A stretch of DNA of 64,000 nt from Ignavibacteria bacterium (GTDB lineage Bacteria > Bacteroidota > Ignavibacteria > Ignavibacteriales > SURF-24), in NCBI GenBank assembly GCA_025612375.1, contig JAAXKN010000005.1:1-64000 (forward strand), in the 5' to 3' direction. The translations under genes were made by a program, and so were the position numbers. Positions 3,716-41,224 of this stretch are shown here, piece by piece (within the stretch, counting starts at the first letter, position 1; every line of letters begins with the position of its first letter). Below the pieces are notes generated by a model, which saw only the letters and a program-made list of their open reading frames with translations, did no database searches and was not told the DNA's origin.

Positions 3716-4348
3716 CTACCTGATCTCTTCATCCAGGATGGAATAGTTTTTCCAGCCTGAGTAATCAAAGTGCCACCACTCTGTGCTTAGGGGCTCAAAG
3801 CCGTATTTTACCATTATGTCTTCAAGGAGTTTGCGGTTTTTAAGGACATTCTCAGGCAGGTCCCTGTAATCCCGGTGAGCCTTGTCCGTAAAATCATCAT
3901 AGGGAGTTCCCATTTCAAGCTCGCGCCCCGTGGAATCTATGAGCGTCAGGTCCACTGCGGCGCCACGGTTATGCCTGGAGCCGTTTTTGGGATTTGCCAC
4001 GTAGCGGGAATCTGGCATTATCTCCCAGAGCTTCTTCTGCACCGATAAAGGGCGGTAGCCATCAAAAACTTTCAGCCTCAGATTGTACTTTTTCATAAGC
4101 TCCATTTCAGCTTCATGGAGCTTCAAGGCCGCGGCTTTTCTTAAATATACGTTTGCCGTGGGATAAAGAACCTTATGCGTAAAATTATCAGGCGTTGCAT
4201 AGCGGACATCCGTTGCAATTGTTGAATCCACCGATTTCAACAGTACAATGGACGTATCGCTGCGAGCTTTTAACGAATCCGTCTGAGCGGATAAAAAGGA
4301 ACTGAAAACAAAAAGAAAAACAGGCACACAGTAGAATTTGCGGCTCAT
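3716..4348 (-). CDS. ddpX: D-alanyl-D-alanine dipeptidase (M15D, VanX/DdpX type), exported
   Basis: A 210-aa zinc dipeptidase expected to hydrolyse D-Ala-D-Ala. Zinc ligands and catalytic residues of the VanX family are visible: SRHNRGAAVD gives His126 and Asp133, EWWHFDY gives Glu190 and His193, and DGYRP gives the conserved Arg98. The N-terminus has a hydrophobic signal peptide ending near SAQ, so the enzyme works in the periplasm, where it would recycle peptidoglycan peptides. It starts 8 bases after the upstream pullulanase-type gene and is probably co-transcribed with it. No vanH or vanA ligase is nearby, so a vancomycin-resistance role is not supported. Length and motifs are normal for the family. 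Confidence 0.9.
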   Translation of the reverse strand: MSRKFYCVPVFLFVFSSFLSAQTDSLKARSDTSIVLLKSVDSTIATDVRYATPDNFTHKVLYPTANVYLRKAAALKLHEAEMELMKKYNLRLKVFDGYRPLSVQKKLWEIMPDSRYVANPKNGSRHNRGAAVDLTLIDSTGRELEMGTPYDDFTDKAHRDYRDLPENVLKNRKLLEDIMVKYGFEPLSTEWWHFDYSGWKNYSILDEEIR

Positions 4349-34362: not shown

Positions 34363-35568
34363 TTATGTCCTGTAATCAGCATTTATTTTAATGTATTCTT
34401 CTGTAAAGTCGCATGTCCACCAAGTGGCTGCCTTCTTTCCGGAGTCAAGACTGATGTTTATTTCAAATTCATCTTTTGAGAGAACTTCCAGGGCTTTCTC
34501 CTCATCGAGTACGATCTTGTAGCCCGGAAGAAGTACCGGCACCTTATCGAAGCTGATGCTCACCTTTGAGGGGTCGAGCTTTGCGCCGCTCATTCCGGCA
34601 GCCGACATAATGCGTCCCCAGTTGGCGTCGCGGCCGTAAATTGCTGTTTTAACGAGCGATGAATTTGCAACCGACTTACCTATAAGGTCCGCGTCCTTTT
34701 CTGTTTTTGCGCCTGTTACGTTAATTGTAACGAGCTTTGTTGCGCCTTCGCCGTCGGAGACAATTGCCTTTGCCATTTTTTTTGTGAGAGCATCGAGAGC
34801 TTCCTGAAAGAGGGCTTCATTCTTTGAGCCTGCCTTAATGCTAAGTTCCGAGTGACCGTTGGCAAGTATGACTACCATATCGTTTGTGGAGGTCTCGCCG
34901 TCAACAGAGATCTTATTGAAAGAATTCTGAACTGATTTCTTAAGCATCTTCTGCAGTAGTGCCTGGCTTACCTTTGCATCGGTTGTAATAAATCCGAGCA
35001 TTGTTGCCATATTCGGCATGATCATTCCGCTGCCCTTGCAAATGGCGCCGATCTTAACCGATCCTCCTTCAAGCTTGACCCTGAGGGCATAGGATTTCAT
35101 TTTCTTGTCGGTTGTCATAATTGCCTGAGCCGCATCGAGCCCGCCTTCTTCAGAAAGATGGGGTACAATCTTGTCAATTCCTGCAAGGTATGTATCCATA
35201 GGAAGTCTTTTTCCTATGACGCCGGTTGAGCTTATAAGGACTTCTGAAGGTTTGATGCCCAGGAGTTCAGCGCAGTGCTTCTGTGTAATCTTTGCATCCT
35301 CATGGCCTTCATCGCCGGTGCATGCGTTTGCATTTCCGGAGTTGACCAGAACGGCCTTTACCGGTTTTTTGCCGCCGATGGCTTTTTTAGAAATAAGAAG
35401 CGGCGCGGCTTTAACCTTGTTGATTGTAAATGTTCCGGCTGCCGAGCATGGAAGTTCCGAATATATTAGAGCAAGATCCTTCTTTCTTTTTTTGATTCCG
35501 CAGTGGATGCCTGCTGCCTTAAAGCCCTTAACGGTTGTTACAGTTCCGTTTTCAATAAATTGATACAT
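34363..35568 (-). CDS. argJ: Bifunctional ornithine acetyltransferase / N-acetylglutamate synthase
   Basis: 401 aa. The self-cleavage and nucleophile site is visible in NMATMLGFITTDA, where the protein is cut before the Thr to give alpha and beta chains. It moves the acetyl group from acetylornithine to glutamate, so the pathway is cyclic and argE is not needed. I chose ATG 35568 (MYQFIENG) because GGGAG lies upstream; a longer frame to 35607 adds 13 residues inside argC. It overlaps argC by 17 bases and ends 12 bases before argB. Confidence 0.94.
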   Translation of the reverse strand: MYQFIENGTVTTVKGFKAAGIHCGIKKRKKDLALIYSELPCSAAGTFTINKVKAAPLLISKKAIGGKKPVKAVLVNSGNANACTGDEGHEDAKITQKHCAELLGIKPSEVLISSTGVIGKRLPMDTYLAGIDKIVPHLSEEGGLDAAQAIMTTDKKMKSYALRVKLEGGSVKIGAICKGSGMIMPNMATMLGFITTDAKVSQALLQKMLKKSVQNSFNKISVDGETSTNDMVVILANGHSELSIKAGSKNEALFQEALDALTKKMAKAIVSDGEGATKLVTINVTGAKTEKDADLIGKSVANSSLVKTAIYGRDANWGRIMSAAGMSGAKLDPSKVSISFDKVPVLLPGYKIVLDEEKALEVLSKDEFEINISLDSGKKAATWWTCDFTEEYIKINADYRT

Positions 35569-36586
35569 TTTTTTCTCCCGTGTGTAATATCCCCAGTCTT
35601 TCGTCAAAATTGAATAATTTGTTCATGTTCTGTACTGCCTGTCCGGCAGCGCCTTTTACGAGGTTGTCGATAGTTGAAGTAACGACAACAACCCTGTTTG
35701 AAACCGACACATTGATATCGCAGAAATTTGTTCCCACCACCCAGCTGAGGTTCGGCGGAACGTTGCGAAGTCTTACAAAATTTGAATTGCCGTATATATT
35801 TTTGTATTCACTTAACACGTCTTTTTCAGAAATATCCTTTTTCAGATGAACTGAGGAAGTGGCATAAATTCCTGTTGCCGCTGGAAGAAGATGCGTTGTA
35901 AATGAATACGGTGAATTAAAACCGTTTTTGTTCAGCATCTGCAGCACTTCCGGCTGGTGGCGGTGGCCGTTGACGTTATATGCCCTGACGTTGCCGTCCA
36001 TCTCAGACATTAGCATTTCTGTTTTTGCCGACTTGCCTGCCCCGCTTGTGCCTGAGTATGCAATTGTGCTGGCAGAGAGAATATCCCCGCCGAACTTTGA
36101 AGCAAGGGGAAGCAGCGAAAGCAGTGTTGCAGTGGGATAGCATCCCGGGTTTGCAACTAAACTTACGCCTTTATATTCATCGCCGATGAAATCTGCAAGT
36201 CCGTAAAGTTTTTCCTTCAGGAGGTTGGGTGAAGTGTGTTTAAGCTTATACCACTTCTCATAAAGTTCAGCTGTATCGAGCCTGTAGTCGCCGCCTATGT
36301 CAATTATCTTTTTATTCTTTGCAATCAGCTCAGGCACATACTTCAGTGCTTCCCCGTGCGGGAGGGCCAGGAAATAAAGGTCGTGGTCATAAGAGACGTT
36401 TTCCGCCGGGAGGATAACGCTGTCGGGCGTCTTGCCGTAAAGGTCGGGGAAAACGGAATAAAGGCTCTGGCCTGCCGTAGAATTTCCGTATATGGTGAAG
36501 TTGTCCACAAAAGGGTGCAGAGATAAAATCTCAACTAATTTTTTTCCTGCATAGCCGCTGCCGCCAATAATTCCAATAGAAATCAT
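35552..36586 (-). CDS. argC: N-acetyl-gamma-glutamyl-phosphate reductase
   Basis: 344 aa. The Rossmann start GIIGGSGYAGKKLVEIL and the catalytic cysteine in VANPGCYPTATLLSL are clear. It reduces N-acetylglutamyl phosphate to the semialdehyde. AGGAGA stands about 10 bases before the ATG. It is the first gene of the arginine operon, behind a 560-bp gap holding the leader, promoter and operators. Confidence 0.95.
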   Translation of the reverse strand: MISIGIIGGSGYAGKKLVEILSLHPFVDNFTIYGNSTAGQSLYSVFPDLYGKTPDSVILPAENVSYDHDLYFLALPHGEALKYVPELIAKNKKIIDIGGDYRLDTAELYEKWYKLKHTSPNLLKEKLYGLADFIGDEYKGVSLVANPGCYPTATLLSLLPLASKFGGDILSASTIAYSGTSGAGKSAKTEMLMSEMDGNVRAYNVNGHRHQPEVLQMLNKNGFNSPYSFTTHLLPAATGIYATSSVHLKKDISEKDVLSEYKNIYGNSNFVRLRNVPPNLSWVVGTNFCDINVSVSNRVVVVTSTIDNLVKGAAGQAVQNMNKLFNFDERLGILHTGEKNVSIY

Positions 36587-36734: not shown

Positions 36735-36765
36735 AATATGTAAGTGTCTGATTTTCATATACATA

Positions 36766-36818
36766 AAAATATGGCCTTTATGCAGAATTGTCAAATTAAT
36801 TATGCATTATTATACATA
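36766..36818 (-). promoter_or_regulatory. arg promoter with overlapping ARG-box operators
   Basis: On the minus strand a perfect -35 TTGACA (36789-36794) is 17 bases from TATTTT (36766-36771). A box at 36801-36818 reads TATGCATTATTATACATA, matching the TGnATwwwwATnCA pattern of ArgR sites exactly. A weaker one at 36779-36796 overlaps the -35 and begins 22 bases away, close to the usual ARG-box spacing. A further palindrome, TGCAATTATTTGCA, lies within 36884-36901. ArgR, encoded in this operon, is the expected ligand. The promoter is about 170 bases upstream of argC. Confidence 0.6.
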
Positions 36819-37063
36819 ATTATACCTATTAGGCGCACATTTATGCATAAAAAGAGAATAAATTTTGTGAGCGCGATTTCAGGTATGCAATTATTTGCAA
36901 AAATATGAAAATCAGGGGAATTAATCCCGGTAAAGAGTATTAATTTTTAATTATAAGCACAATATTCATAACAGGATTGAAATTATCTCCGCCGTGGAAT
37001 TTGATATTTATACCCTTATGCGCTATCTTTTATCTGAAGCGGGCTGATGCAGCGGGCACGATT

Positions 37064-37118
37064 TTTAATCAAATTTTAAGATTCTCCTTAGAGATATTTA
37101 AGAAATCATTTCTACCTT
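37064..37118 (+). promoter_or_regulatory. Four 11-bp-phased direct repeats: likely response-regulator operator and promoter
   Basis: TTTAAT at 37064, TTTAAG at 37075, CCTTAG at 37086 and TTTAAG at 37097 begin exactly 11 bases apart. Repeats at one helical turn are typical of OmpR/PhoB/PhoP-family binding sites. A weak -10-like TACCTT (37113-37118) follows 16 bases after the start of the last repeat. The array sits just upstream of the DUF2231-response regulator-kinase operon. The same design occurs at 39719-39757 before the rubrerythrin gene. Confidence 0.6.
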
Positions 37119-37146
37119 AAATTAAAACACATTAAAGGAGGATAAA

Positions 37147-37626
37147 ATGTTTGATACGTCACACCTGCACCCGATGATAGTGCACTTCCCTATTGCACTT
37201 CTGATAGTCGGATTTTTATTTGATGCAGTCAGCCTGTTTGTAAAGAAAGAATTCTTCAGCACCGCGGGCTTCTACTTGCTGATACTTGGTACGCTTGGCG
37301 TCGTTGCGGCCTTTTTTACCGGCTCTTATGCCGGGGGCGGAATAAGCGAGGCGGGATCGCTTAAGCAGGCTCTTGAAACGCATGAAGGGGCGGCAGAACT
37401 GGCCCTCTGGCTCATGATAATAACTGCTGTTGTAAGGATTGCCCTCGTAATTGCAAAGAAATATGAAGGCGGATTTAAGTATGCCGTTGTATTTCTCTTT
37501 TTACTTGGCGTGCTGGCAATAGCAAGAACCGGCTACTACGGGGGGGACCTGGTGTTCCGCCATGCAGCAGGAGTCCAGTTTAATCTTGGCCTTGATTCCG
37601 GTGCGGGGGATTCCGAAAAAGAATAA
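37147..37626 (+). CDS. DUF2231 integral membrane protein
   Basis: 159 aa with four membrane segments. Conserved histidines sit near the membrane in HLHPMIVHFPIAL, in ALETHEGAAELALW and in RHAAGV, the pattern of the DUF2231 family, in which they may bind haem or another metal. AAAGGAGG precedes the ATG. It is 31 bases before the response regulator gene and shares its promoter, so it may be the sensed or regulated membrane component. The biochemical function is unknown; a redox role is suggested only by the histidines and by the rubrerythrin under an apparently shared operator. Confidence 0.82.
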   Translation: MFDTSHLHPMIVHFPIALLIVGFLFDAVSLFVKKEFFSTAGFYLLILGTLGVVAAFFTGSYAGGGISEAGSLKQALETHEGAAELALWLMIITAVVRIALVIAKKYEGGFKYAVVFLFLLGVLAIARTGYYGGDLVFRHAAGVQFNLGLDSGAGDSEKE

Positions 37627-37657
37627 CACTATTGAACTATTCCGGAGCGGGAAATAT

Positions 37658-38326
37658 ATGAGGGTTCTGGTTGTTGAGGATGAAAAAGGAATTGCCGAAT
37701 TCTTAAAGGATGGACTTGAAGAAGAAGCCTTCGCGGTGGACCTGGCTCCCGAAGGGCGCTCGGGCCTGCAGATGGCTGAAGTAAACGATTACGATTTAAT
37801 ACTCCTGGACTGGATGCTCCCGGGGATCAGCGGAATTGAACTCTGCCGGCAGCTCCGCAAAGAGAAAAATGATACTCCCATAATTTTTCTTACTGCAAAA
37901 GATACCGCACAGGACGCGGTCTTCGGGCTCGAAAGCGGTGCTAATGATTATATAAGGAAACCCTTTGCCTTCGAGGAGCTGCTGGCCAGAATAAGAGTGC
38001 AGTTAAGATCAGGCTCTGAGGAGCATTCAATCCTGAGGCTCGGAGGAGTGGAACTTAACCTTGATACGCACCAGGTTTTCCAGGGCTCCAGGGAAGTAAT
38101 TTTAACGCAGAAGGAATTTGCACTTCTTGAATTCCTGCTCAGAAACAAAGGGAAGGTGTGCACCAGGACCCGGATAATTGAGCACGTATGGGATATTCAC
38201 TTTGAAGCCGATACTTCAGTTATAGACGTGTATATTAACTTCCTGAGAAAAAAGCTGGATAATGGAAGCGGCAAAAGTTTTATTCACACCGTAAGGGGCT
38301 CGGGCTATATTGCACGTGAAGAATAA
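37658..38326 (+). CDS. OmpR-family response regulator
   Basis: 222 aa. Receiver domain 1-115 with VVEDE, acceptor Asp51 in LLDWMLPG, Thr in FLTAKD and Lys in IRKPF; then a C-terminal winged helix (about 128-220) with LTQKEFALLEFLLRN and VDVYINFLRKKL. I chose ATG 37658 because the earlier in-frame ATG at 37562 lies inside the DUF2231 gene and adds a non-domain tail. It overlaps the kinase gene by 11 bases. Predicted targets are the 11-bp repeats upstream of its own operon and of the rubrerythrin gene. It resembles CusR/CopR-type regulators in layout. Confidence 0.95.
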   Translation: MRVLVVEDEKGIAEFLKDGLEEEAFAVDLAPEGRSGLQMAEVNDYDLILLDWMLPGISGIELCRQLRKEKNDTPIIFLTAKDTAQDAVFGLESGANDYIRKPFAFEELLARIRVQLRSGSEEHSILRLGGVELNLDTHQVFQGSREVILTQKEFALLEFLLRNKGKVCTRTRIIEHVWDIHFEADTSVIDVYINFLRKKLDNGSGKSFIHTVRGSGYIAREE

Positions 38327-39704
38327 TTTAAGCATAAAAAACAGGATAGCCCTCTTCTTCATGATCGCTACGGCTGTCCTGATTACACTGCTTTTTGCAA
38401 CCATTTACGTTGTGGTGTATAATACTGTCTTTAACCACCTGGATTCAGATCTCGAGGCAGAATCAATTGAAGTCCACAGGAATCTTGTAATCTTAAACGA
38501 CCGCTTTGTAATTACGAATTCAGAAGAGTGGATGGAAAAAGAGCACCGCCAGATAGAGGTAAACCCCACCTTTGTTGAGATCGTTGACAGGAATGGGAAC
38601 CTCACAAAGAAAACCGGCAACCTGCTCTACGGAAGCCTTAAATTCGATCCCTCAATTAAAACAAAAAAGTTTTTTGACGCCAGGCTTTCAGGAGCCCCCA
38701 TAAGGCAGCTTCAGATGCCGATTGAGAACCCTTCGGGCCTGACGCTTGGATACCTTATTATTGCAATCCCACTTGAAGAGTCGGCTCTTGTACTAAGAAA
38801 CCTTCGCAACGTTTTAGCCGTGGCAATTCCGCTTGTACTTATACTTTTATATTTCATAACAAAGTTTATTGCAGGCAAGAGCATGGCTCCAATAGACACA
38901 GTAATTTCAACGGCAGAGAAGATTACAAAGGAAAACATTGATAAGAGAATTGAACTCCCGGTGCACAAGGATGAGCTTTACACACTGACATATACAATAA
39001 ATGATCTTCTGGACCGCCTGCAGGATGCGGTCCTGCGGGAAAAGCAGTTTACCTCAGACGCCTCACATGAGCTAAGGACGCCTCTGGCAGTATTAAAAGG
39101 AACGCTGGAGGTTTTGGTGAGGAAACCCCGCAGCACTGAGCAGTACGAGACAAAAATTAAATACTGCATTGATGAGGTTAACCGCATGTCGAACCTTGTA
39201 GACCAGCTCCTTATGCTGGCGCGATATGAAAGCGGCAAAACAGAGCCTAAGATGCAGAAGATAGATATTGCAGGAATTATTGAGCACACAATTTTAAGAA
39301 TGCAGCACGGTATAAACGCCAAAAGGATCTCACTCAGTTTTGACAGCGAAGCCCCTGTTTATGCCAGCGCTGACGAGGCGATGCTGGAGATAATACTGGA
39401 CAACATAATTTCAAACTCGGTAAAATATTCGGGAATGGATACGTCAATAAACATAACGCTGAAGACCGATAACGGAAAGGCCGTCTGCACAATTCAGGAT
39501 TGCGGTATCGGCATGGAAGAAGAGGAAATTGAAAAGATCTTCGACCGGTTCTACCGTATAGATGAATCGCGCAGCTCCAGGATCAGCGGAAGCGGGCTTG
39601 GCCTTGCAATAGTTAAAAAACTGGCCGACCTGCAGAAGCTCCGCCTCAGAGTAGAAAGTAAACCCGGCAATGGCACCACTTTTTCCATCTATTTTAATGA
39701 TTAG
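38316..39704 (+). CDS. Sensor histidine kinase of the DUF2231/rubrerythrin locus
   Basis: About 462 aa. Two membrane segments flank an extracytoplasmic domain of some 130 residues with no recognised ligand motif, followed by HAMP, HisKA (SDASHELRTPLAVLKG, His251) and a complete HATPase domain (NIISNSVKYS, DCGIGM, GSGLGLAIVKK). I prefer GTG 38316 (MKNNLSIKN) over TTG 38310; both are in frame and overlap the regulator gene by a few bases. It should phosphorylate the adjacent regulator in response to an envelope signal. Confidence 0.93.
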   Translation: MKNNLSIKNRIALFFMIATAVLITLLFATIYVVVYNTVFNHLDSDLEAESIEVHRNLVILNDRFVITNSEEWMEKEHRQIEVNPTFVEIVDRNGNLTKKTGNLLYGSLKFDPSIKTKKFFDARLSGAPIRQLQMPIENPSGLTLGYLIIAIPLEESALVLRNLRNVLAVAIPLVLILLYFITKFIAGKSMAPIDTVISTAEKITKENIDKRIELPVHKDELYTLTYTINDLLDRLQDAVLREKQFTSDASHELRTPLAVLKGTLEVLVRKPRSTEQYETKIKYCIDEVNRMSNLVDQLLMLARYESGKTEPKMQKIDIAGIIEHTILRMQHGINAKRISLSFDSEAPVYASADEAMLEIILDNIISNSVKYSGMDTSINITLKTDNGKAVCTIQDCGIGMEEEEIEKIFDRFYRIDESRSSRISGSGLGLAIVKKLADLQKLRLRVESKPGNGTTFSIYFND

Positions 39705-39718
39705 ACACGCCTGAAGAT

Positions 39719-39772
39719 TTTAAGCAATTTTTAAGAATCCATTAACCTCCTTTTTAGGAAAACTGGTATAAT
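39719..39772 (+). promoter_or_regulatory. Four 11-bp-phased direct repeats and -10 box of the rubrerythrin promoter
   Basis: TTTAAG at 39719, TTTAAG at 39730, ATTAAC at 39741 and TTTTAG at 39752 begin exactly 11 bases apart. A perfect TATAAT follows at 39767-39772, so the last repeat covers the -35 region, as in promoters activated by OmpR-family regulators. The third repeat is the weakest, as at 37064-37118. The array lies directly after the kinase gene, so the regulator encoded here is the obvious candidate. Confidence 0.65.
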
Positions 39773-39808
39773 TATTAAGTAATCACTAATAACAAAAGGA
39801 GAAAAACT

Positions 39809-40429
39809 ATGTTCAGAAGATCTTTCATTATCTTAATTGCCATGATGTTCGCCGCTTCCATTACTTACGCCGCAAAGCCAAATAATGCCCTGGCATTAAA
39901 AATTGAAAACCTGAAGGCTGCTTTTGAAGGGGAATCCACAGCTAGCGCCAAGTACGCAGCCTATGCAAAGAAAGCCAGAGAAGAAGGTCATCCTCAGATC
40001 GCGCTGTTATTTGAAGCCGCCTCTTTCTCGGAGGCAACCCATGCAAACAATCATAAATCGGCTCTTTCAGAATTAGGGCAGTCGGTAGGAAAAATAACCC
40101 CGAAGTTTGAAGTTAAATCCACAAAGGAAAACCTGCAGGATGCAATCAACGGCGAGACATACGAAGTAACAACAATGTATCCTGATTTTATAAAAGCCGC
40201 CAATGAGAATATTGAAAAGATATCGCTTAACTATGCGTACCTTACAGAAAAGAAGCACAAGGAGATGTATAAAAACGCTCTTGAACAGCTTGAGGCAGGC
40301 AAGGAAAGCTCGCTTTCAGGCACTTATGCCGTATGCACAACCTGCGGCAACACTTACGACGGCCCCGCCCCGAACAGGTGCGGAATTTCAATGACGCCTA
40401 AGGACAGATTCAAAATATTTAAGTTATAA
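39809..40429 (+). CDS. Exported rubrerythrin with incomplete rubredoxin site
   Basis: 206 aa. A signal peptide (MFRRSFIILIAMMFAASITYA) is followed by a ferritin-like di-iron domain with two ExxH motifs, EATH and EKKH, and the partner Glu residues in FEGEST and NGETYE. Rubrerythrins reduce hydrogen peroxide. The C-terminal rubredoxin-like domain has the first pair CTTC, but the second pair, normally CxxC, reads CGIS, so one of four iron ligands is Ser. Most rubrerythrins are cytoplasmic, so export is notable. AAAGGAG precedes the ATG and the promoter carries the 11-bp repeats. Confidence 0.92.
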   Translation: MFRRSFIILIAMMFAASITYAAKPNNALALKIENLKAAFEGESTASAKYAAYAKKAREEGHPQIALLFEAASFSEATHANNHKSALSELGQSVGKITPKFEVKSTKENLQDAINGETYEVTTMYPDFIKAANENIEKISLNYAYLTEKKHKEMYKNALEQLEAGKESSLSGTYAVCTTCGNTYDGPAPNRCGISMTPKDRFKIFKL

Positions 40430-40507: not shown

Positions 40508-40849
40508 TTATTCTGCTATTCTGCCTCTGGATGATTTACGGGTTTTATTAAATCTATGCTTCACAGACTCATCCAGCATTACTTTTATTAAGGACTGATA
40601 TGGAACGTCCAGCTGATGGGCCATGGATCTTAAATCATCCAAAAGAGAAACAGGCAGTCTTATAGAAATAGTTTGTGTTGAAGGTTTCAGGTTGGGAAAT
40701 ACAGCTTCCTCTGCCTGATCCCAATCGATATAATCGGTGCTGTCATTTTCCGCCCAGAATTCTCTTTCCTCATCTTCATTCCTGAAGGCTGGAATTTCCT
40801 TAAGTTTGCGTTCTTTTCTTTTCATGCTCTTCATAACGTTGTCTTTCAT
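40508..40849 (-). CDS. brnA: BrnA/CopG-family antitoxin
   Basis: Up to 113 aa. The N-terminal half is charged (KLKEIPAFRNEDEEREFW), and the C-terminal half is a ribbon-helix-helix domain (TISIRLPVSLLDDLRSMA) ending in DVPYQSLIKVML, the typical CopG antitoxin pattern. It neutralises BrnT and usually represses its own promoter. It overlaps the toxin gene. Alternative starts at 40834 and 40825 (MKRKERK) are possible and none has a clear Shine-Dalgarno; I kept the longest. Confidence 0.88.
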   Translation of the reverse strand: MKDNVMKSMKRKERKLKEIPAFRNEDEEREFWAENDSTDYIDWDQAEEAVFPNLKPSTQTISIRLPVSLLDDLRSMAHQLDVPYQSLIKVMLDESVKHRFNKTRKSSRGRIAE

Positions 40850-41117
40850 TGGGAGTCATATCTCTGACAGATATGATTCTCACCATGTTTTCTCTTTCAG
40901 TAAATGAAATAAATAATTTCCTTTCCCTATTAGTTTTACCAAGCGCCAGGTATCGTCTCTCGGTTGTAGTAGAATGTTTTTTGTCAGTACTAAGCAAAAT
41001 TGGACGATTAAAAAACACTTCCTCCGCCTCTGTTCTAGTAACATTATGTTTGTAGTAGTTTTTATCCCAGTTCCCGATATCCCAGTCAAATTCGGTCGAT
41101 TTCGTAATCTTTAACAT
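40800..41117 (-). CDS. brnT: BrnT-family toxin (ribonuclease, DUF497)
   Basis: 105 aa from ATG 41117. The family motif appears as TEFDWDIGNWDKNYYKHNVTR, close to FDWD-x(n)-N-x-KHgV of BrnT, and the C-terminal part has ERRYLALGKT and IISVRDMTPNERQRYEEH. BrnT is a RelE-like ribonuclease. I rejected the 41174 start because it adds a hydrophobic stretch absent from the family. It is first in the operon and overlaps brnA by up to 50 bases, the usual order. Confidence 0.9.
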   Translation of the reverse strand: MLKITKSTEFDWDIGNWDKNYYKHNVTRTEAEEVFFNRPILLSTDKKHSTTTERRYLALGKTNRERKLFISFTERENMVRIISVRDMTPNERQRYEEHEKKRTQT

Positions 41118-41135
41118 GTCGCAAATGCTCAGGAT

Positions 41136-41154
41136 GTATATAATGAATATATAC
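41136..41154 (-). promoter_or_regulatory. Inverted repeat upstream of brnT, candidate BrnA operator
   Basis: GTATATA-ATGAA-TATATAC is a perfect 7-bp inverted repeat 19 bases upstream of the brnT start, where the autoregulating antitoxin normally binds. The A/T-rich composition means part of it could also be the -10 region. Confidence 0.45.
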
Positions 41155-41224
41155 GCTTTTAATAATAAATACAAGAATTAATTAAAGCAAAATATCCGGA
41201 ATAAAAACGTATTAATGGCTTTTC

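Follow-up and report, generated by a model that had tools for sequence, protein, structure and literature searches.

Comparison with described systems

The PmrA (BasR) box of enterobacteria reads YTTAAK-N5-YTTAAK, a hexamer direct repeat with a 5-bp spacer read by an OmpR/PhoB-type regulator. The PhoP box of these bacteria has the same layout and may overlap the -35 element (PMC3335776, in excerpt). We describe a repeat of this layout at two places in a 64,000-nucleotide stretch of an Ignavibacteria bacterium (GenBank assembly GCA_025612375.1, contig JAAXKN010000005.1, positions 1 to 64,000; hereafter the window), once before an operon encoding a DUF2231 membrane protein, a response regulator (RR) and a sensor histidine kinase (HK), and once before the adjoining gene of an exported rubrerythrin (Rbr). 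The best overall explanation of these sequences is probably a self-contained two-component module, whose RR would activate both promoters.

Compared with PhoP and PmrA, the module has four units where they have two, a regulon that is usually limited to two sites per genome where theirs is large, and a -7 element of the Bacteroidota type, and its RR reaches half of the PmrA/BasR NCBIfam equivalog cut-off (165.1 of 330 bits). The best NCBIfam models for both regulatory proteins come from the CusRS/CzcRS/CopRS group, with scores that stay below the cut-offs (243 of 279.2 bits against TIGR01387 for CusR/CopR; 233.4 of 292.55 bits against TIGR01386 for heavy-metal sensor kinases). Unlike those systems, the module operon holds no efflux gene; it encodes DUF2231 instead, and an exported Rbr adjoins it.

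Rubrerythrins are known as cytoplasmic peroxidases fed from NAD(P)H. The module protein shares with rubrerythrin and nigerythrin a diiron four-helix domain and, at the C-terminus, a rubredoxin-like one, but simple rules class it as exported or lipid-anchored, and its fourth rubredoxin Cys is usually Ser. An OmpR-type regulator affecting a rubrerythrin-like protein, Rrc, is known in CosR of Campylobacter jejuni, which differs from the module RR in its 32 regulated proteins, its negative control of Rrc and its 21-bp AT-rich site (PMC3139631, in excerpt). In some Chitinophagales a rubrerythrin-like/VIT1 fusion adjoins the module and resembles the Er-VIT1 exporters of the MbfA type; such transporters are mere neighbours, absent from the window module. 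MbfA has been linked to iron and H2O2 sensitivity (PMC4902296, in excerpt), and iron-dependent rbr genes are described for P. gingivalis, P. intermedia and B. thetaiotaomicron (PMC10434189, in excerpt). Among the matches listed in literature searches on DUF2231, exported rubrerythrin, its regulation and rubredoxin Cys-to-Ser changes, mostly the openings of abstracts, no account of the module was found.

Two operator arrays in the window

The initial annotation of the window had described two arrays of four 11-bp units, and direct inspection of the sequence found both in place. The arrays and genes are laid out as follows.

37064..37107, plus strand: operator array 1, four 11-bp units at 37064, 37075, 37086 and 37097, before DUF2231
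37147..37626, plus strand: DUF2231, four-helix membrane protein (PF09990, E 1.3e-20; AF2 model, pLDDT 84)
37658..38326, plus strand: OmpR/PhoB-type response regulator (PF00072, PF00486; alignment of 8 orthologues)
38316..39704, plus strand: sensor histidine kinase (HAMP, HisKA, HATPase_c; GTG 38316 the likely start, TTG 38310 possible)
39719..39762, plus strand: operator array 2, four 11-bp units at 39719, 39730, 39741 and 39752, before rubrerythrin
39809..40429, plus strand: exported rubrerythrin (PF02915; diiron ligands kept; tail CTTCG...RCGIS, Ser at the fourth Cys)

Array 1 consists of TTTAAT (37064), TTTAAG (37075), CCTTAG (37086) and TTTAAG (37097), and array 2 of TTTAAG (39719), TTTAAG (39730), ATTAAC (39741) and TTTTAG (39752). 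The third unit had been called the weakest in both; this holds for array 1, whereas in array 2 the third and fourth units are about equally weak. Direct repeats one helical turn apart, of the kind that OmpR/PhoB-family regulators bind, are present at both promoters as putative binding sites. The encoded RR belongs to that family, with a receiver and a winged-helix Trans_reg_C domain above cut-off and D51 invariant in the 8 orthologues.

Within the window genome the four-unit array stands far above chance. A model built from sites of other genomes (the held-out model described below) gave array 2 an E value of 4.4e-9 and array 1 one of 3.0e-6, followed by a third match at 0.0047, with 150 of 7531 first-pass candidates scored. 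In a seven-source search the matches of the same model spanned 37061-37108 for array 1 (E 5e-8) and 39717-39762 for array 2 (E 7.2e-11). From their sequences, the arrays look functional.

Conservation of the module and its arrays

Protein searches of 39 relatives found DUF2231, RR, HK and Rbr together in eight genomes (G000, G001, G004, G023, G028, G029, G033 and G038), with orthologue identities of 67-100% for RR, 59-100% for Rbr and 62-100% for DUF2231. When both upstream regions were aligned, the repeats proved to be kept at both promoters, a four-unit array lying 5' of DUF2231 and of rbr in all eight module genomes. The 16-site alignment has 13 invariant columns out of 52, although it leans towards the motif because the site windows were picked by the best TTTAAG-unit match upstream.

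A wider scan of named genomes retained the best 80 of 145 encoded Rbr relatives (loci L110-L189). All four genes are present in 64 of these loci, and their order is tight in 63, the exception being L114, where another open reading frame occupies the HK-Rbr gap. The carriers comprise Flavobacterium, Chryseobacterium, Labilibaculum, Prolixibacter, Bacteroides ihuae, Ignavibacteria, a Calditrichaeota metagenome-assembled genome (MAG) and a Pontiellaceae bacterium that bears no MAG tag; for MAGs a binning error is possible. Four or five of the 64 loci overlap with the training set (L110-L113 correspond to G004, G033, G028 and G001, and the sites of L121 are identical in sequence to those of G038).

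Using the 16-site position matrix, we ranked the promoter sites on the plus strand of their own loci. The DUF2231 site came first or second in 62 of 64 loci (third in L175 and L177) and the Rbr site in 66 of 67 (third in L189), the latter set including three loci without a detected DUF2231. Left out of these counts were 13 loci without both RR and HK, of which five lie at contig ends (L116, L117, L145, L162 and L173) and eight served for the comparison of module loss.

The module is patchy, since Rbr was detected at E 1e-50 in 7 of 395 genomes sampled from the phylum, the window genome included. In a joined-protein tree of 62 loci and the window, drawn without branch support values, the Pontiellaceae module groups with Melioribacteraceae, which suggests that it was acquired by transfer as one unit.

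Genome-wide site searches

A sequence-only model of 16 sites, trained on these same module sites, placed the two module sites first in each of the eight module genomes (30.6-45.4 bits). Its next match in any module genome reached 22.7 bits, and its best match in eight genomes without the module 19.4 bits. The held-out model was built from 10 sites of five genomes of other families (G023, G028, G029, G033 and G038) and run on 12 other genomes. The two module sites were its top two matches in 12 of 12, each time on one contig and 2.6-4.1 kb apart, a spacing as in nine module loci. In the window genome these top two are the two known arrays. Further regulon members were sought as well, and none was convincing in the scanned genomes, where third-best matches were at most 22.7 bits among the 150 candidates scored per genome, out of at least 1000 from the first pass. 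The predicted regulon is, as a rule, two promoters.

Loss and displacement of the module

We then compared the eight loci that have enough upstream DNA and an Rbr without linked RR and HK. DUF2231 directly precedes Rbr in six of them (L129, L135, L154, L155, L169 and L188). In two of the six, L129 and L135, DUF2231 is preceded by an array (matrix scores 19.7 and 22.6) but Rbr is not, and their genomes encode an RR orthologue elsewhere (61 and 59% identity). The other four have no array (-1.9 to -27.6); the genomes of L154, L155 and L169 hold RRs of at most 46% identity, and that of L188 none at 1e-55. At the remaining two loci, L119 (37.4) and L140 (26.3), Rbr has an array and lacks DUF2231, RR and an intact HK; both genomes encode an RR at 74% identity beside a DUF2231 elsewhere. 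Array and RR orthologue are thus both present for four loci (L119, L129, L135 and L140) and both absent for four, an agreement of 8/8.

Genome G418 presents a split arrangement. Its module locus (L240) retains the front array (45.3), with no Rbr or second array 3' of HK, while its Rbr is that of L119, located on a separate contig with its own array and a transposase gene upstream. The initial annotation assigned control of rbr and of the regulatory operon itself to the encoded OmpR/PhoB-type regulator; conservation, the two-site regulon and the loss patterns lend this prediction strong support.

Promoter architecture

The layout of the promoters was examined over 131 sites, some of which are related and so not independent. 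In 102 of these sites a TAnnTTTG-like -7 element, matching at 5 of 6 fixed letters, follows the array at an offset of 51 or 52, against 3.0 expected from single-base shuffling. None of the 102 has TTTG at -33, and TTG is found there in 10. Unit 2 reads YTTAAG in 122 of the 131 sites and unit 1 in 86, while units 3 and 4, both degenerate, overlie the -33 place.

The housekeeping consensus of Bacteroidota combines a -7 TAnnTTTG with a -33 TTTG (PMC2483708, in excerpt), and the module promoters fall outside it, keeping the -7 element and missing the -33 TTTG. As read from sequence, this layout is that of an activator substituting for the upstream promoter element, to which the PhoP boxes that overlap -35 offer a known parallel (PMC3335776, in excerpt). 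Because the -7 element stands at a fixed distance and the -33 TTTG is lacking, both promoters are probably activated by the RR from a position at -33. In the window the corresponding elements are the following.

37113..37120, plus strand: TACCTTAA, putative -7 element for DUF2231, at offset 51 and so in the conserved register, 4 of 6 letters
39767..39776, plus strand: TATAAT at 39767-39772, present 3' of the second array as initially noted; the conserved -7 register is TAATTATT at 39769-39776, 4 of 6 letters

Proposed mechanism

An envelope signal would activate the HK, which, to judge from the protein families, would phosphorylate the RR. Two RR dimers would then bind head to tail across four half-sites, YTTAAG-N5-YTTAAG and the two weaker units. 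With the last units covering the -33 place, the RR would activate the TAnnTTTG promoter, acting as a rule at two promoters, that of DUF2231-RR-HK (positive autoregulation) and that of the exported rubrerythrin. The latter would reduce peroxide, or handle iron, outside the cytoplasm, with DUF2231 perhaps as its co-effector, in the simplest case by donating electrons from the quinol side.

Distant bacteria have this putatively exported rubrerythrin, mostly linked to DUF2231 and to a regulator of its own with two operators, and three questions become testable: the electron route to an envelope rubrerythrin, the role of DUF2231 and the natural working of a Cys3-Ser rubredoxin centre.

The exported rubrerythrin and the signal

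The window protein is a member of the rubrerythrin superfamily, with a PF02915 match and a diiron domain containing two E-x-x-H motifs. Across 71 sequences E75, H78, E116, E147 and H150 are invariant, and E42 and E119 are conserved in at least 90%. The window protein departs from the classical Cys4 rubredoxin site of rubrerythrin in having Ser as the fourth ligand, as do 67 of the 80 Rbr proteins (Cys in 13), and it scores below the NCBIfam equivalog cut-offs for rubrerythrin (93.3 of 200 bits) and nigerythrin (111.2 of 340 bits). Ser and Cys forms are both found in otherwise similar modules. A lipobox is present at the N-terminus in 30 of the 80 and another hydrophobic N-terminus in 49, one being cut by a contig end; these classes come from simple rules applied to any in-frame start, with no control and no signal-peptide predictor. 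These rules support the envelope location suggested by the initial annotation.

We infer a redox or peroxide response from the usual function of rubrerythrins, and iron is about as likely a signal as peroxide. The likeliest rival, a tentative but serious alternative, makes the exported Rbr chiefly an oxidase or other handler of iron, with a kinase that senses iron instead of peroxide. VIT1-family transporter genes adjoin 13 of the 64 modules (L127 is a weaker fourteenth), and the HK sensor domain (~38415-38795, located by a predicted model and structure search) contains five residues, the four Glu E38, E41, E43 and E48 and the His H44 (domain numbering), that are invariant in 64 of 64 kinases and also in a second alignment covering 39 of 66. 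The model of this domain is weakly like PDC-type sensors (best E 2.9e-3), with PhoQ and CzcS among the matches. However, the displaced kinases of G039 and G040 are without three of the four Glu, and Rbr retains peroxidase-type ligands.

The DUF2231 membrane protein

DUF2231 passes the PF09990 gathering score (74.3 against 26.4 bits), a family for which the literature match is limited to a computed label. Five His are conserved among 70 sequences: His79 in 70, His8 and His13 in 69, His139 in 68 and His6 in 64. Mean Lys+Arg content is 2.5 in the loop between transmembrane helices (TM) 1 and 2 and 3.0 in the TM3-4 loop, compared with 0.0 at the N-terminus, 1.1 in the TM2-3 loop and 0.8 after TM4. 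By the positive-inside rule for membrane topology, this concentration of Lys+Arg in the TM1-2 and TM3-4 loops puts the predicted positions of His 6, 8, 13, 79 and 139 on the periplasmic side. The predicted model is a four-helix bundle, for which Foldseek places cytochrome bd, CcmF and CcmC first, all weak matches (E at least 0.057); VIA-align Z scores are 10-14 and equally high with designed helical bundles. A heme fold for DUF2231 is therefore speculation.

The initial annotation had allowed for DUF2231 either as a sensor partner or as an effector. We judge a role as accessory sensor of the kinase unlikely and the effector role more likely. DUF2231 heads the RR-HK operon, and in G418 it remains with RR and HK while Rbr lies elsewhere, as a sensor would; but it adjoins Rbr without RR and HK in the six loci described above, and a second DUF2231 stands right after Rbr in Flavobacteriia and Chitinophagales. 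The regulatory part of the initial proposal stands, as a prediction from sequence. It is conceivable, though rather doubtful, that DUF2231 is a redox protein that passes quinol electrons to the exported Rbr with its Cys3-Ser site, forming an inducible, membrane-linked envelope peroxidase that is both inherited and transferred as one unit, its two operators included.

The second DUF2231 is seen in L176:5553-6849, L139:5603-7295 and similar loci. These modules often also have VIT1 or a rubrerythrin-like/VIT1 iron transporter, and several Flavobacteriia carry a small lipoprotein gene before Rbr. In a Kiritimatiellales genome, L140:106-1819 holds an extra Rbr and its own array 3' of a cytochrome b561-family gene (PF01292) and of a short piece resembling the end of the module HK. 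The cytochrome neighbour is a single hint at a membrane cytochrome as a possible Rbr partner.

Repression, other regulators and points against the module

Repression of both promoters by the RR until a signal arrives, with the array covering the promoter and blocking polymerase, is improbable. The overlap of the array with the -33 region would suit a repressor as well, but the missing -33 TTTG and the scarcity of TTG are as expected of activator-dependent promoters, and the fixed spacing between array and -7 element fits contact with polymerase.

It is more improbable still that a different OmpR-family regulator reads the arrays. The window genome does encode related RRs (at 53 and 45% identity), a paralogous lineage carries a similar TTAAG array next to its genes, and one partial array, at a contig end, lies in a genome without a detected RR orthologue; but array and orthologous RR are kept or missing together in 8/8 testable loci, and the eight genomes without the module have paralogues but no comparable array.

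Several observations weigh against a self-contained module whose RR activates two promoters. The two-unit box alone is common in the window genome but shows no enrichment there, with 65+53 matches at one mismatch or fewer compared with 74+53 for a reversed-pattern control. The pattern TTTAAGN5TTTAAG was dropped as a regulon search on this account, and the claim was therefore tested on the whole array and by conservation. Both window -7 elements match only 4 of 6 letters, so the window is a weak example of the promoter rule. Many arrays of Flavobacteriia and Chitinophagales have diverged (matrix scores 2-20). With only 150 candidates scored per genome, weak extra sites could escape. Genome G419 departs from the two-promoter rule, having a third array before the extra Rbr of L140; its module locus (L241) has both module sites (42.5 and 20.1), and the contig stops before any Rbr. 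No array accompanies the displaced RR-HK loci of G039 and G040, and autoregulation is therefore not universal. The partial array noted above, at the contig end of L117 (18.2 bits), belongs to a genome without an RR above 45% and without DUF2231, which missing contigs may explain. Lastly, a paralogue array in G004 scores 22.7 bits, the closest to the module arrays, and cross-talk between the module RR and paralogue arrays is for this reason possible.

In the paralogous RR-HK lineage (~52% RR identity), a TTAAG-type array related to that of the module but distinct from it adjoins the RR and HK genes in three of the four loci examined, at L191:2587-2630 and 3722-3765 (G004:C9), L190:2278-2321 (G000:C7) and L193:3694-3737, and not in L192.

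Neighbouring features

Several TATGCATA/ATACATAA-like palindromes, possibly sites of an arginine regulator, lie at 36740-36870 of the window, where the module is separated from a divergent gene (35552-36586) that looks like argC. Downstream of rbr, on the minus strand at 40508-41174, two small overlapping genes have, by their sequence, the look of a BrnT/BrnA-type toxin-antitoxin pair.

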